Positions 54,546 through 60,667 of a stretch of 64,000 bases of DNA are shown one piece after another. A program made the position numbers and the translations under genes. Origin of the DNA: Candidatus Chloroploca asiatica (lineage in GTDB: Bacteria; Chloroflexota; Chloroflexia; Chloroflexales; Chloroflexaceae). Under the pieces are notes generated by a model, which was not told the DNA's origin, ran no database searches, and saw only the letters and a program-made list of their open reading frames with translations. Numbering within the stretch: the first letter of the stretch is position 1; each line of letters begins with the position of its first letter. The stretch is from NCBI RefSeq assembly GCF_002532075.1, contig NZ_LYXE01000188.1:1-64000 (forward strand), read 5' to 3'.

Positions 54546-55724
54546 CTACGCACGGACAAAGACGAGGGTGGCCCCGTCATCAACAGTGATTGTCAGGGTC
54601 GTGCCGTCGATCACATAGCTCGTGGCTCGGCTTAGCTGATCGAGGAAGGCCATTTCCTGGGCCAGGATCGCATCCTCGCACGCCATCATGGTGCTGCCGG
54701 CCTGGGTAATGCTGAGTGTACCTTCGGCAACGGTGTAGCCCGCAAAGTAGCGGTTGCAGCCAGCCGAACCCGCGACGCGGCCTTCGTCGTCAAACTCGGC
54801 GGAGATGGGCGTAGCCTCGCTCAGCGGCGCTGCGCCGTTGAGCTCAGTCAGCAGCCAGCTCGTGCCGGCCAGGGCATTGCTTGTCTGCTCAAAGACGAGC
54901 GTAGCGCCATCATCAATGGTGATCGTCAGGGTCGCGCCGTCGATCACATAGCTCGTAGCCCGGCTGAGTTGATCGAGGAAGGCCTGCTCTTGCGCCATGA
55001 TCGCCTCTTCACATGCCATCCGCGTGCTACCGGCCTGCGAAATGCTGAGCGTGCCATCGGCAACGGTGTAGTCGGCAAAGTAGCGGTTGCAACCAGCCGA
55101 ACCCGTGATGCGGCCCTCGGTATCAAACTCGGCCGAAATTGGCGCACTCTCGCTCAGCGGCGCTGCGCCGTTGATGGCGGTGAGTACCCAATTCGTTCCG
55201 GTCAGGTCATTGCTCGTGGTCACTTCTTCCTCCGCACGCTCAAAAACGAGGGTGGTTCCGTCATCAATGGTGATCGTCAGGGTCGCGCCATCGATCACAT
55301 AGCTCGTAGCGCGGCTGAATTGATCCAGGAACGCCTGTTCCTGCGCCATGATTGCATCCTCACACGCCATCATGGTGCTGCCGGCCTGGGTAATGCTGAG
55401 CGTGCCATCGGCAATGGTGTAACCGGCAAAGTAGCGGTTGCAACCAGCGGAACCCGCGACGCTTCCCTCGGTATCAAACTCGGCCGAGATTGGCGTACCC
55501 TCGCTCAGCGGCGCTGCACCGTTGAGCTGCGTCAGCACCCAACTCGTTCCGGCCAGGGCATCACTCGCCTCTGGCGTCGTGGCTTCTTCGGTGACCGGTG
55601 TCTCCTGCTCGGTCGTCGCAGGTGTCGGCTCGGTGGTTGAGCCGGTGCTCGGTGCGGTGCCACAGGCAGCCAAGACAAGCATGCCCATCAGCAGCGCCGA
55701 AAGAATCGTCATACGCAACTTCAT
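54546..55724 (-). CDS. Lipoprotein with three tandem META domains
   Basis: A 392-residue lipoprotein: signal with lipobox LAAC (C21), a Thr/Glu-rich linker, then three near-identical META domains (about 57-166, 172-280, 283-392). Each has GTxWxLTxLNGAAPLSE, GSAGCNRYFAxYT and TMMACEDAI-type cysteines, which probably form a disulfide as in HslJ/META proteins. The very high similarity between copies shows recent triplication and leaves a 345-base DNA repeat. Family members are linked to stress or drug tolerance in the cell envelope. GAGGAG precedes the ATG at 55724. Confidence 0.88.
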   Translation of the reverse strand: MKLRMTILSALLMGMLVLAACGTAPSTGSTTEPTPATTEQETPVTEEATTPEASDALAGTSWVLTQLNGAAPLSEGTPISAEFDTEGSVAGSAGCNRYFAGYTIADGTLSITQAGSTMMACEDAIMAQEQAFLDQFSRATSYVIDGATLTITIDDGTTLVFERAEEEVTTSNDLTGTNWVLTAINGAAPLSESAPISAEFDTEGRITGSAGCNRYFADYTVADGTLSISQAGSTRMACEEAIMAQEQAFLDQLSRATSYVIDGATLTITIDDGATLVFEQTSNALAGTSWLLTELNGAAPLSEATPISAEFDDEGRVAGSAGCNRYFAGYTVAEGTLSITQAGSTMMACEDAILAQEMAFLDQLSRATSYVIDGTTLTITVDDGATLVFVRA

Positions 55725-55844
55725 TGCTCTCCTCACTTCTACTCAAGGATAATCTGTGTGCGGGGCCACTATTCTGGTGCTGTGTAGCCCTGCCATAGTG
55801 AGAACGTTGTCTTGGGCAGGAATGTTCCCACCTGACGCTATTTC

Positions 55845-56576
55845 TCAGCTATTTCTCAGCCAGTCGCGCAGGGCATAGGGTAGATAGACCAGCACAAACG
55901 CGAGTAGGCCGACAAACTGCAGTGGAATGAGATACCAGGGCCACGGCCCCATGAGATCGAGCAGACTTGGGAAGGCCGGCTTGCGGGCGATAAACATATA
56001 GTTGCCCCCAGTGAGCCAGTTGACCAGGCCAACAACAAGCAAGATGGCATTGGTAAGCAGAAAGACCCGCCCAAGCGACCCCCAGGTGGGGCGATAGTGC
56101 CACGCTCTGATCGCAAACAGGGCCGCGAAAAGCGGAACCGCGTGTGAGGTCCAGAAGATCCAGTAGACAAAATGAGGAAAATTGAACCCATTGCTCTGGA
56201 GATCCGGGGTGAGCAGGGCCTGAACCGAACCGGCAAAGCCCCAGAAATAGATCAGTTCGAATAGCCGCACGTTGCCTGTCGCCAGCATCAAGGCCGACAG
56301 TGGAACCGCTAGTGTGCAGAGGTGTAACGGCAGCGAATACTGTATATTCCAGAGTCCGTTGCTCAGTTGCCAGAGATCCCAGGCGAACCAGTTGGCAAGG
56401 CTGTAGACAATCAAGCCACGCTTGAGCAGGGTGCATCCCTGCGCATCAAGGCGTGGTGTCACCCACGCCAGGACGACACATCCCAGGGCAATTGTCAGCA
56501 GTGGCAAGAGATGCTCAGGCGACCAGAGCTCAAACCGAGGTCCGATAAACGACGGGCCAAAGATATTGGGGAACAT
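55845..56576 (-). CDS. YwaF/TIGR02206-family membrane protein
   Basis: A 243-residue protein with about seven membrane segments. Signature residues NIQYSLPLHLCTLAVPLSA, FWGFAGSVQALLTPDL and HFVYWIFWTSHAVPLFAALF match the YwaF family, related to the acyltransferase-like TMEM164 group. The conserved C and H could form an active site. Function in bacteria is unknown. The start at 56576 has AGGA nine bases upstream. Confidence 0.8.
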   Translation of the reverse strand: MFPNIFGPSFIGPRFELWSPEHLLPLLTIALGCVVLAWVTPRLDAQGCTLLKRGLIVYSLANWFAWDLWQLSNGLWNIQYSLPLHLCTLAVPLSALMLATGNVRLFELIYFWGFAGSVQALLTPDLQSNGFNFPHFVYWIFWTSHAVPLFAALFAIRAWHYRPTWGSLGRVFLLTNAILLVVGLVNWLTGGNYMFIARKPAFPSLLDLMGPWPWYLIPLQFVGLLAFVLVYLPYALRDWLRNS

Positions 56577-56681
56577 GACCGTTTCCTGTCTCTTGTTGTT
56601 CATTCTTTTCGAAGTTGCACCCATCTTCTATTCTTCGTATAATACAGTGATACTGCTCTATCAACCGGAGGATTTTTGCCC

Positions 56682-58670
56682 ATGCCGATGTACGAGGTCG
56701 AGACATCACAGCCGCCAGACCTCGTGGCGGCGTTGTGTGAAACCTGGCCGCGCATTGCCGAATTGCTTGCCGATCTGGAGACCGAGGCGATGGCCGAGGC
56801 GCGGATCGGCGGTTTGCGTCATATCGGGGCTGTCTGGTATGCGCAAGGAGGCGTGGCTGAGGTTTTGACCGAACTCGGGCTGGCGCTCGCCGAACGCCTC
56901 AAGCTCTCGCAGGGGTTGGTGGTCAGTGAATTATTGCTGGCGTATGGGGCCGCCCAGGAAGAGCAACGTACCCGCGAATGGGAAGCACGTCTGCTGGCGC
57001 GCGCCTCGGAGCTCGATGGTCTTCATCGCATTATTTCGGCGGCAAACTCGACGCTGGATCTCGATACCTCCCTCCAGACTGTGGTTGAAACCGTTGCCCA
57101 GGTTGTTGGGGTTGAGGCATGTTCTGTCTACCTGTACGACAAGCATCGTGACGAACTGGTCTTGCGGGCGACCCGTGGGCTCAATCGTGCCGCGATCGGG
57201 CAGGTTGTGTCGCACCTGGGGCAAGGAGTGACGGGTTGGGCTGCCCAGTTGGGGCATCCTGTGGCGGTGCGCGACGTCTGGCAGGATCCTCGTTTCAATG
57301 TTGAACCGCAGCTTGGCGAAGAGACCTTTCGCTCGATGCTGGCGGTTCCGATTGTGCTCTTTAGTGCCGAGCGCTATCAGTTCAGTGCCGATAAGCTGCA
57401 AGGGGTGATTACCGGGCAGACGATCGGTCCGCGTGACTTTACGCAGGAAGAGATCTCGTTTGTCGAAGTGGTGGCGGGCGAGCTTGCCTTCTTTATTGCC
57501 AATGCCCAGCTCTATCAGCAGACCGACGAACGCCTCCACCAGAAATTGCGTGAGTTGACGACATTGCAGCAGGTCTCGAAGAGCATTGCCGAGCAGATCG
57601 GGTTGCGTGATGTGCTCTCGCTGATTACCGAGAAGGCGGTCGAACTCGCCCAAGCTGACCGGGCTTCGATCTTTCAGATGGGCGACGACGGGCACCTGCA
57701 ATTGATGGCGACGTACGGCGGCGAGGGTGACGGCGTGCGGGATTTCATCATCCAGACGGTGCGGGATAGCCGCCCGCTGGCTGTGATGAATGCCTATCAA
57801 GATGCGCGCTTCCCTGAACTGGCTGCTGTTGCGCGGCGTGAGCAGTTTCATTCGCTCTTTTGCATGCCGTTGCGCGCCCGTGAACGCACGATTGGCGGGA
57901 TTTGCCTCTATAAACGTGAGCCGCACCTCTTTGATTATGAGCAGGTACGCTTGCTCAGCACCTTTGCTGATGAGGCCGCTATTGCGATTGAAAATGCCCG
58001 CCTCTATGAAGAAAGCCAGCGGGCGCTCGCGATCAAGTCGGCCCTGCTGCAAGAGATGCACCACCGGGTGCGTAATAACCTCCAGACTATTTCGGCGCTG
58101 CTGGCAATGCAACTGCGACGGGTTGAGCCGCACAGCCAGGGTGCCAAGGCGCTGCGCGAGAGTGCGGCGCGCATTCAGTCGATTGCGGCCATTCACAATC
58201 TGCTCTCACGCGAGGATGTGGGCGTTACCACGGTGAACGCCGTGGCTCGACAGGTCGTCGAGAGCGCTCAGTCAACGCTGGTGCATAGTGAGGCCCCCGT
58301 TCGCTTTGCCATTATGGGCGATGAGGTGCGTGTTGGTTCACGGGATGCAACGGTACTGGCGCTGGTCATCAATGAATTGATTAGCAATGCTCTCTCGCAC
58401 GGGCTTGCCGCTGAGGGGGGCAGTGTCGAGGTTGAAGCTACGCTCGGCGTAAGCCAGGTGATGGTCGAGATTCGCGATGATGGGCCGCGCCATCCACCCC
58501 CCCCGCGCCCTCCCCATAGCAGTGGATTGGGTTTGCACATCATCGAAACGCTTGTTCACCAGGATCTGGGGGGTGACTTCCGCTTGATCCGCGATGATGC
58601 GCACGGTTGGATGCGGGCACAGGTCTGCTTTCCGCAACATCTTATTGATGAAGTTGGGGAAACGCTGTGA
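56682..58670 (+). CDS. Sensor histidine kinase with two GAF domains (HisKA_2 type)
   Basis: A 662-residue soluble kinase. An N-terminal helical region (1-110) resembles RsbR-type sensor domains. Two GAF domains follow (about 120-280 and 300-440), then a HisKA_2 domain with H460-H461 in EMHHRVRNNLQTI, and a HATPase with NELISNALSHG, RDDGP and SGLGLHIIETLV. A Pro-rich HPPPPRPPH stretch lies in the ATP lid. The HisKA_2 class often signals to receivers that control partner switches. GGAGG lies ten bases before the ATG at 56682. The amidase gene follows 20 bases after the stop. Confidence 0.9.
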   Translation: MPMYEVETSQPPDLVAALCETWPRIAELLADLETEAMAEARIGGLRHIGAVWYAQGGVAEVLTELGLALAERLKLSQGLVVSELLLAYGAAQEEQRTREWEARLLARASELDGLHRIISAANSTLDLDTSLQTVVETVAQVVGVEACSVYLYDKHRDELVLRATRGLNRAAIGQVVSHLGQGVTGWAAQLGHPVAVRDVWQDPRFNVEPQLGEETFRSMLAVPIVLFSAERYQFSADKLQGVITGQTIGPRDFTQEEISFVEVVAGELAFFIANAQLYQQTDERLHQKLRELTTLQQVSKSIAEQIGLRDVLSLITEKAVELAQADRASIFQMGDDGHLQLMATYGGEGDGVRDFIIQTVRDSRPLAVMNAYQDARFPELAAVARREQFHSLFCMPLRARERTIGGICLYKREPHLFDYEQVRLLSTFADEAAIAIENARLYEESQRALAIKSALLQEMHHRVRNNLQTISALLAMQLRRVEPHSQGAKALRESAARIQSIAAIHNLLSREDVGVTTVNAVARQVVESAQSTLVHSEAPVRFAIMGDEVRVGSRDATVLALVINELISNALSHGLAAEGGSVEVEATLGVSQVMVEIRDDGPRHPPPPRPPHSSGLGLHIIETLVHQDLGGDFRLIRDDAHGWMRAQVCFPQHLIDEVGETL

Positions 58671-58690
58671 AATCTGCCTAAGGAAGCGTG

Positions 58691-60667
58691 ATGAGTGATT
58701 TTCCGACTGAGGGGCGTCCGCCTTTTATTAACCGACGCCTGTCGCTTGCGGAATGGAAGCAGTATGTGGCCGGGTATGACTTTGGCGCTCTGGCGCCGAG
58801 TCGTCTGGTGCTGCACCATACCTATACGCCTACCGAAGCCCAGTGGCGCGGCCTGACGACCATGCGCGGTATCCAGCGCTTTTATGCCGGCAAGGGCTGG
58901 ATGGCAGGCCCACATCTTTTTGCTGGCCCCGATGGAATCTGGCTCGCTACCCCGATGTCGCAGGTCGGCGTTCACGCCGGTGTTGGCAATGGCTCGGTCG
59001 CCCAGGGCTGGTATTCGATTGGCCTCGAAATGGTTGGTCGCTTTGATGCAGTGCGCCCAACTGGGGCCGTCTGGAACTATGCGCTGGCGGTGATGGGTGA
59101 GTTGTCGCGTCGCCTGCGTATTCCACCACGCCGATTGATCTCTTTTCACCGTGATTACACCAATGCGAAGAGTTGCCCGGGCTGGGCCGTGACCAAAGAG
59201 TGGGTCTGGGCGAGTGTCGAGGCCTATCTGAATAATACCGCGGTTCCCCCGCCCCCGCCGCCTGATCCACCTGTTATTCAGCCTTCTGATGAGGTCTTGC
59301 TTGAGCGGTTGCTCGAAGAGACTTTTCGTCAGCGGGCAGGGAGCCAGGGGTATAATCCGGCCTGGAGTTTCCATCAATCTGCGGTTGAGCAGCAACTTGG
59401 GGCCCCTATTGGGCCAAGTCGTACCCTGGTGGAAGGCGGCCAGCAGTACGATATGCAACCCTTTGCGCGTGAGACGCTCTATACGGAGGTGCCCAATTGG
59501 GGTGATGTGCGGACGCTCTCGGATCTGCTTGGAGGGAGTATTCCGCCCGCAGGTCTTGGGCGACGTTTGCTCGAAGAGACCTTTGCTGTCGGCAATGCGC
59601 CCTTCCGGCCCGACTGGGCGTTTCATCAGTTTGCGCTGCTGCGCCGCATGGGGCCGCCCCTTGCGCCCGGGGCGACGATCACGGTTGATGGCAACCAGTA
59701 TGCCTATCAGGTCTTTGCGGTTGATACGCTCTATAACCTGGTGCCCAACTGGGAAGATGTGCGCCTCTTGAGCCATCTCGCTGGGACAACGAATGCCAGT
59801 GATGTCCGCTTGCGTGAGGCGTTGCTCGCCACGACCTATCGGGTTGTCGGGCAAACGTATCGGCCAGATTGGGCGTTTCATCAACGCGCTCGTCGCGATG
59901 CGCTTGGGGCACCACTCTCGCCTTCGTACCAGATTCTGGTGGAAGGGCGGAGCTATGCGATCCAGGTCTATGCGTTGGACACCCTCTTTAACCTTGTCCC
60001 CCGCTGGAGCGAGGTGCGCCGGATGAGCCAACTCTTCCCGGCACCCTCGGTACTCGGTGGTGCATCGATTTCCGCTGCGGAGGAGCCAGCGATGACGATC
60101 CTCGGTGGCATGGTTGACGCTGAAGCACCAGTTGCCGCCCTCGAGACACTGGAACGTGGAGCCTTGCATCCCGACCGGCTTGACCAATCGATTATTCGCT
60201 CTACCCTGCCATCCTGGGCACGTAGCCCCCGTGATGGGCGCAAGGTTGAACTGGTGGTGCTGCATGCGCTGCCAGGTTCCCCCGAGGAGGTTCTGGCTCG
60301 GATGACCGATCCTGGGTCGCCCTTTGCGACCCATTATTATGTTACCCTCGCCGGCACGATCATCCAGTTGATCGACGAAACCGAGGCCGCCTGGCACGCT
60401 GGCTTCGGCTCGGCCGATGGGCTCTGGTGGAATCTCAATACCATCAGTCTGGGCATTGGCCTAGAACGACCGCCCGACTGGCCTGCGAGCCTGCCTAGCG
60501 AGACGACTTTGCAAGTCGCCGCACTCACGAACCTCTTGTGTGAACTGAGTATTCGATGTCAACTGACGCCTGATGCGATCCTGCTCTGGAGTAGCCTCGC
60601 TGGCGGTGCGCCCGAACTGCTTGAGGGTTTGCCGCTCGAGCGCCTTTGTGAGGCGATCAGCGTATGA
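58691..60667 (+). CDS. Multi-domain amidase with three internal repeats
   Basis: A 658-residue protein without an obvious signal peptide. Residues 35-180 are an amidase_2/PGRP domain with zinc ligands H42 (or H43), H153 and C162. After a Pro-rich linker come three repeats of about 75 residues (205-280, 293-366, 374-449). Their shared pattern is Y-x-P-x-W-x-FHQ, LGxPLxP, then Q-x-F-A-x-D-TLYxxVPNWxDVRxLS. Residues 517-657 are a second amidase-like domain (HALPGS, THYYVTLAGTI, AAWHAG) in which the usual C-terminal H and C ligands are missing. It overlaps the next gene (ATGA). Confidence 0.8.
   Translation: MSDFPTEGRPPFINRRLSLAEWKQYVAGYDFGALAPSRLVLHHTYTPTEAQWRGLTTMRGIQRFYAGKGWMAGPHLFAGPDGIWLATPMSQVGVHAGVGNGSVAQGWYSIGLEMVGRFDAVRPTGAVWNYALAVMGELSRRLRIPPRRLISFHRDYTNAKSCPGWAVTKEWVWASVEAYLNNTAVPPPPPPDPPVIQPSDEVLLERLLEETFRQRAGSQGYNPAWSFHQSAVEQQLGAPIGPSRTLVEGGQQYDMQPFARETLYTEVPNWGDVRTLSDLLGGSIPPAGLGRRLLEETFAVGNAPFRPDWAFHQFALLRRMGPPLAPGATITVDGNQYAYQVFAVDTLYNLVPNWEDVRLLSHLAGTTNASDVRLREALLATTYRVVGQTYRPDWAFHQRARRDALGAPLSPSYQILVEGRSYAIQVYALDTLFNLVPRWSEVRRMSQLFPAPSVLGGASISAAEEPAMTILGGMVDAEAPVAALETLERGALHPDRLDQSIIRSTLPSWARSPRDGRKVELVVLHALPGSPEEVLARMTDPGSPFATHYYVTLAGTIIQLIDETEAAWHAGFGSADGLWWNLNTISLGIGLERPPDWPASLPSETTLQVAALTNLLCELSIRCQLTPDAILLWSSLAGGAPELLEGLPLERLCEAISV

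Follow-up and report, generated by a model that had tools for sequence, protein, structure and literature searches.

A leaderless Chloroflexales amidase with a putative wall-binding cassette

The gene at positions 58691..60667 (+) of the window, the 64,000-nucleotide stretch of the Candidatus Chloroploca asiatica genome that we analysed, encodes a protein in which an N-terminal zinc amidase domain, three repeats, and a second, degenerate amidase domain are joined behind an N-terminus without a signal peptide. The parts of this architecture, designated type A, are ordinary, and their assembly is unusual. The combined data argue that type A is probably a leaderless, endolysin-like peptidoglycan amidase of Chloroflexales that carries a wall-binding cassette and has a role in lysis or wall opening. 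Across the order, a whole set of wall hydrolases lacking a leader is arranged around this one unnamed cassette, in hosts whose wall biology is little studied, and type A allows a clear-cut test of the path by which such enzymes get to the wall.

Domain architecture and the two amidase domains

The features of the gene and its upstream neighbour are as follows.

56676..58667, +: GAF-GAF-HisKA_2 sensor kinase gene, upstream, about 20 bases before the open reading frame
58691..60667, +: whole type A gene (amidase, three repeats, pseudo-amidase), 658 aa; conserved start at ATG 58691
58715..59236, +: N-terminal zinc amidase domain of the T7-lysozyme/PGRP type, residues 9-182 (PF01510, columns of 24 orthologs, Foldseek of the whole model)
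59237..59302, +: proline-rich linker, residues 183-204 (alignment; model pLDDT <50 at 192-197)
59300..59536, +: repeat 1, 79 aa (repeat comparison and alignment)
59558..59788, +: repeat 2, 77 aa (repeat comparison and alignment)
59813..60043, +: repeat 3, 77 aa (repeat comparison and alignment; three-repeat model)
60050..60187, +: disordered, fast-changing linker, residues 454-499 (pLDDT <50 at 451-498; dN/dS)
60188..60655, +: C-terminal pseudo-amidase, residues 500-655 (phmmer, Foldseek, ortholog columns; dN/dS)

The open reading frame at 58688-60667 (+) comprises 659 aa and opens with GTG at 58688; the orthologs favoured the ATG at 58691, in agreement with the gene bounds given by a first-pass annotation of the window. 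The ortholog set consisted of the window sequence and 23 of 42 loci (24 rows), gapped rows being left out of the column counts, and only rows from this alignment were used for the structure models. The genome falls in the genus Candidatus Chloroploca, and the nearest named records, at 95%, were from C. sp. Khr17 and Ca. C. mongolica. A Pfam scan of the type A protein detected Amidase_2 as the sole family.

The whole protein scored 97.3 bits for Amidase_2 (PF01510), above the curated cut-off of 26, and the candidate zinc ligands H42, H153, and C162, together with E113 and K160, were identical in 24/24 orthologs, so that the full zinc site seen at first pass in the N-terminal domain is borne out. 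The functional roles of Glu116 and Lys162 of AmpD and of the T7 lysozyme residues provide the background for these columns. Foldseek searches with the whole model matched XlyA, PlyL, PGRP, T7 lysozyme, and AmpD. The score and the three zinc ligands place the N-terminal domain in Amidase_2, and its predicted identity as an active zinc N-acetylmuramoyl-L-alanine amidase is strongly supported by sequence.

The C-terminal domain showed a real Amidase_2/AmpD fold, as judged by a phmmer match to AmpDh2 (E 1.6e-7) and whole-model Foldseek matches to AmpD, XlyA, and PGRP. The first-pass annotation had described it as a second amidase domain without zinc ligands, which is correct in part: the second His is replaced by Trp (W633) in 22/22 orthologs, the position of the catalytic Glu (590) is occupied by G, A, T, M, or L in 23/23, and no third conserved zinc ligand was seen in the columns of the 24-row alignment, but the first His (H525) is retained in 23/23. 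The domain lacks both the complete zinc site and the catalytic Glu of an active Amidase_2. Among three Chloroploca species, dN/dS was 0.13-0.22 for the pseudo-amidase and 0.04-0.08 for the repeats and N-terminal domain, with 0.45-0.64 for the linker preceding the pseudo-amidase; the type A gene is under purifying selection. The value for the pseudo-amidase and the fixation of Trp across the aligned orthologs rule out that this domain is a relic. Its fold and conservation suggest that it may bind peptidoglycan in the manner of a non-catalytic PGRP.

The triple repeat and its occurrence in other wall hydrolases

The three repeats were confirmed, at lengths of 77-79 residues rather than the 75 noted earlier. 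Pairwise Smith-Waterman scores were 188, 157, and 195 against shuffled means of approximately 23 (SD 3.7-4.8), and the repeats were 44-50% identical to repeat 1, a similarity far beyond chance. The repeat occurred in 40/400 genomes of the phylum, all within Chloroflexales and including every sampled member of the order. The type A frame was broken inside repeat 3 in MAG contigs at L023 and L051 (Oscillochloris RM1_1_4) and at L061, reflecting either sequencing error or decay.

At first pass the repeat had been considered unrecognised and possibly new. Profile searches agreed to the extent that none of 47 repeats matched PF08310 or any plausible Pfam family; Foldseek of the repeat folds returned 0 rows at E <= 0.001, and PDB sequence profiles yielded only molybdopterin synthase (E 0.13-0.2), which we took as chance. 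The predicted triplet model (m9e48ffa22c41; pLDDT 93.8, pTM 0.91) showed, for each copy, helices, three strands, and a short helix, and the model and the repeat alignment together revealed the helix, three-stranded sheet, and LGxP motif of LGFP repeats. The LGFP repeat comprises a helix and three strands, and the LGFP domain of MytA interacts with peptidoglycan-arabinogalactan, according to PMC11299179. This domain occupied the top rows of a VIA-align search (Z 5.4 and 5.0), where Z 5.4 falls in the range that the tool calls common; the best of these rows had an rmsd of 2.4 over 51 residues, and the list, spanning mainly one repeat, also included DDB1, LGI1, and other propeller rows. A Chloroflexota LGFP profile scored the triplets at a mean of 6.6 bits, compared with -8.5 for shuffled sequences, -10.0 for reversed sequences, and -6.7 for amidase domains; the scoring covered 39 non-redundant regions of 67, and the sequences are related, so that P values overstate the difference. 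Alignment of the repeat with LGFP by hhalign gave 50% over 25 columns. The link to LGFP is weak by itself, and these data suggest that the repeat is a divergent, lineage-specific, "LGFP-like" subfamily instead of a wholly new repeat, which is half of the known-domain match that the first-pass annotation had named as grounds for refutation; a wholly new fold is not claimed. The Ca. C. asiatica genome also contains two LGFP (PF08310) matches, both on other contigs. In another Chloroflexota family, an amidase-like protein (assigned by eye) carries one LGFP repeat (L165-L168), a precedent for the combination of amidase and LGFP.

The repeats were also found joined to other catalytic domains, in the following arrangements.

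Type B2: active AmpD-type amidase, triplet, degenerate amidase (L002, Chloroploca)
Type B1: AmpD-type amidase, triplet (L118, Roseiflexaceae; L119, Herpetosiphonaceae; L124)
Type D: dead amidase, triplet, Peptidase_M15_4 (L116, L117, L133)
Type E: dead amidase, triplet, Peptidase_M23 (L123, L132)
M23 forms with the triplet and without the dead domain (L128, L129)
Single repeat after a glucosaminidase-like domain that scores below the Pfam cut-off (L003, L114)
Single repeat after a glucosaminidase-like domain, by length and profile (L110, L112, L113)

The labels of the amidase types ("Cp" and "AmpD") derive from small home-made profiles. The dead amidases of types D and E can be aligned with the type A domain, several of them having the same Trp. 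The triplet and dead amidase stay constant while the catalyst changes, in either order, as would be expected if they served as a binding cassette. Worded at first pass as a possibility, the idea that the repeats bind the wall and the last domain only binds is the best supported, and wall binding by the cassette is probable. Both the repeat and the conserved pseudo-amidase are candidates for naming as families. L190:2698-5430, L191:3049-5409, and L194:339-2699 encode proteins of 787-911 aa that include a distant amidase domain of the N-terminal type, and the next gene in L190 and L191 encodes a repeat-bearing protein.

Missing leader, distribution, and phage copies

No signal peptide was found in 24/24 type A orthologs, as the first-pass annotation had noted for the window protein; the highest 15-residue mean hydropathy within the first 45 residues was 1.0, on a hydropathy scale and not by a trained signal-peptide predictor. 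The same was observed for the B1, B2, D, and E examples scored, and neither these nor type A had a strongly hydrophobic N-terminus (highest, 1.45). By contrast, the M23 (five readable of six over the cut-off) and Amidase_3 (2/2) proteins of the same genome had hydrophobic N-termini at 2.36-2.88; in this comparison L216 (M23) was unread and L217, below the cut-off, was left out. Since other wall hydrolases of the genome have such N-termini, the absence of a leader is a trait of this group and not of the genome. Among repeat-bearing proteins, higher values were obtained for L128 (1.65) and L129 (1.51), both M23 forms, and for L003 (3.00), the glucosaminidase form, and these three may be membrane-bound.

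Near-full-length matches (E <1e-100) were present in 35/61 genomes of the order, comprising 26/37 of the same family, 9/9 Roseiflexaceae, 0/6 of another family, and 0/9 Herpetosiphonaceae. Type A is not indispensable, being absent from 26/61 of these genomes. Relatives of the protein were sought in 84,980 species genomes and turned up at 42 loci, whose stated lineages were all Chloroflexota except for one given just as "bacterium". Plasmid spread was rejected, with only five weak single-domain hits.

IMG/VR contained nine loci with relatives, eight of which were relatives of the N-terminal domain. Two phage contigs, L076 and L077, encode this domain at 78 and 75% identity near terminase, with portal genes in L077. 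In a 61-row tree, which did not include the AmpD-type hit L084, L076 and L077 fell inside the host clade (100/95) beside Oscillochloris-like copies, L079 joined Roseiflexus (93/80), and L080-L083 were distant. From these placements, the phages represented by L076, L077, and L079 most likely took the catalytic domain from their hosts, a case of host-to-phage capture of a lytic domain. The presence of the domain without a leader in the phage lysis cassettes of L076 and L077 indicates that it is used lytically in leaderless form. The window gene itself lies among cellular neighbours and not in a phage lysis cassette, and a search of 50,697 phage records returned none that matched it; a prophage or phage origin of the gene was rejected on this result and on the nesting of phage copies within host sequences.

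Gene neighbourhoods and possible roles

A GAF-GAF-HisKA_2 kinase gene lies upstream of type A in Chloroflexaceae, both in the window and at nine other loci (9/22 loci read). The kinase gene directly precedes type A in L034, L035, L044, L045, L060, and L064, and an intervening gene encodes TerC in L040 and a TerC-like protein in L037 and L038. Further upstream in the window, the gene at 55848-56624 (-) matched TMEM164 over its full length (PF14808, 2.8e-50), which places a family familiar from animals in a bacterium, and that at 54549-55736 (-) encodes three META-domain stretches behind a lipoprotein-like start.

A different neighbour was found in Roseiflexaceae, where a CHAT gene lies directly downstream of type A in 12/19 genomes carrying type A (including G428, with a type A fragment, and G431, with an N-terminal CHAT piece at a contig edge); the remaining 7/19 had no match at all to that CHAT protein. 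A second CHAT family precedes the Chloroflexaceae paralog B2, directly upstream on the same strand and at a short stop-to-start distance, in 25/29 loci (L164, a different protein, is excluded from the 29). Of the four loci without CHAT, L143 and L159 are at or near a contig edge, and L162 and L163 had no match within about 1.5 kb. The His and Cys motifs were kept in most B2-linked CHAT proteins; L138 and L141 did not fit the Cys pattern, nor the truncated L148 the His pattern. A B2-linked CHAT protein, that of L115, matched the PADLOC model "chat" at 5e-94, and no PADLOC model matched the amidases. Each genome had 7-14 CHAT genes (5 genomes), and chance adjacency was estimated at approximately 1% for one gene. 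The two couplings, exemplified by the CHAT-domain genes at L115:9717-11135 (-) and L054:11890-14433 (+), look independent, as they involve different CHAT proteins on different sides. No CHAT hit was obtained on the contig of the window (C187), and none was noticed beside the other Chloroflexaceae type A loci read, whose neighbours were compared solely with those at three reference loci. Caspase-like (CHAT) genes are thus linked to wall amidases, a combination of CHAT domain and N-acetylmuramoyl-L-alanine amidase that our literature search did not find.

On the reading that we favour, type A would be synthesised in the cytosol without a Sec signal and retained there for want of a leader, reaching the wall only upon membrane breach or by another route, as do LytA and phage endolysins. 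The enzyme would be held on the wall polymer by its LGFP-like repeats together with its dead amidase, the latter domain, with Trp for a zinc-binding His, presumably binding without cutting as non-catalytic PGRPs do, and the N-terminal domain would cut the MurNAc-Ala bond. In filaments, the enzyme most likely serves to lyse the cell or open its wall when directed by a partner, which the neighbourhoods suggest may be the upstream sensor kinase here and the adjacent CHAT protease in relatives.

Alternatively, type A might be a housekeeping wall enzyme that leaves the cell by non-classical export and serves filament separation or growth, a reading we regard as possible but doubtful. It accords with the wide inheritance of the gene in the order (35/61 genomes) under purifying selection, and leaderless LytA is reported to act in daughter-cell separation (PMC12029793). 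However, a special route needs a reason in a genome whose other wall hydrolases have hydrophobic N-termini. The gene is also absent from the sampled Herpetosiphonaceae (0/9), which likewise grow as filaments. A cytosolic enzyme of the AmpD kind that recycles imported muropeptides would share the AmpD-family fold and the lack of a leader, but we consider it very unlikely, since the large cassette common to M15 and M23 peptidases and the phage use of the domain point to the polymeric wall. Least credible is that type A represents a prophage remnant or is delivered as cargo by a contractile injection system. The protein is leaderless and endolysin-like, and sheath-family genes occur in 42/82 genomes of the order; nevertheless, G003, G010, G033, G048, G054, and G060 have type A but no sheath match, which largely refutes the cargo, and the cellular neighbours in the window and the position of the closest phage copies inside the host tree speak against a remnant. 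The phage-sheath family genes (G000:C119:33876-34370 and 41 other order genomes) may themselves represent contractile injection systems or prophages.

The CHAT linkage raises a further reading, in which the leaderless hydrolases act as the executioners when cells die by a programme: once triggered, for example by phage, a CHAT protease would open the membrane or trim the linker, and the stored amidase would dissolve the wall. The frequent adjacency to CHAT at B2 (25/29 loci) and at Roseiflexaceae type A (12/19 genomes), the small number of CHAT genes per genome, the PADLOC match, and the long flexible linkers in the type A model are consistent with it. Adjacency, however, demonstrates linkage rather than cleavage, a partner that would open the membrane did not emerge, type A is kept in seven Roseiflexaceae genomes without the CHAT neighbour, and no CHAT was noticed near the window copy or the other Chloroflexaceae type A loci read; we hold this reading to be unlikely. 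Its order-wide form, a caspase-like lysis programme of Chloroflexales in which CHAT, coupled at least twice in evolution, releases a stock of leaderless, endolysin-like amidase, M15, and M23 enzymes with a common wall-binding cassette that dissolves the wall of the doomed filament cell, is rather improbable. If true, it would constitute a bacterial death pathway with a peptidoglycan amidase as executioner.

The favoured reading, a leaderless amidase for lysis or wall opening, can be set against several known systems. T7 lysozyme and PGRP amidases (PF01510) share the fold and the His/His/Cys zinc set with the N-terminal domain; unlike them, type A has a C-terminal copy minus two ligands and the catalytic Glu. 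This copy resembles the non-catalytic PGRPs (such as PGRP-SA, -LC, and -LE), which have the amidase fold without the full zinc site and bind peptidoglycan, as stated in PMC8124813; it differs in being bacterial, fused to an active amidase, and marked by the His-to-Trp exchange, and its peptidoglycan binding is putative. The repeats share with the LGFP repeats (PF08310) and MytA of Corynebacterium glutamicum the helix and three strands, LGxP, tandem arrangement, and fusion to wall enzymes, whereas they measure 77 and not approximately 54 residues, are PF08310-negative, occur as three copies in hydrolases, and have an extra helix and a W..V tail. The endolysins of L076 and L077 agree with type A in their catalytic domain (75-78% identity), down to the PPFINRRLS prefix, with a different C-terminus that is glucosaminidase-like (below the Pfam cut-off) and free of repeats. 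The closest working model is the pneumococcal autolysin LytA, from which type A differs in having repeats that match no choline-binding family in Pfam, in carrying an additional, dead amidase domain, and in having been found in Chloroflexales only. Like type A with its putatively wall-binding repeats, LytA combines an N-terminal amidase with a repeat-type wall-binding part, and PMC12029793 describes it as free of a signal peptide and akin to prophage lysins.
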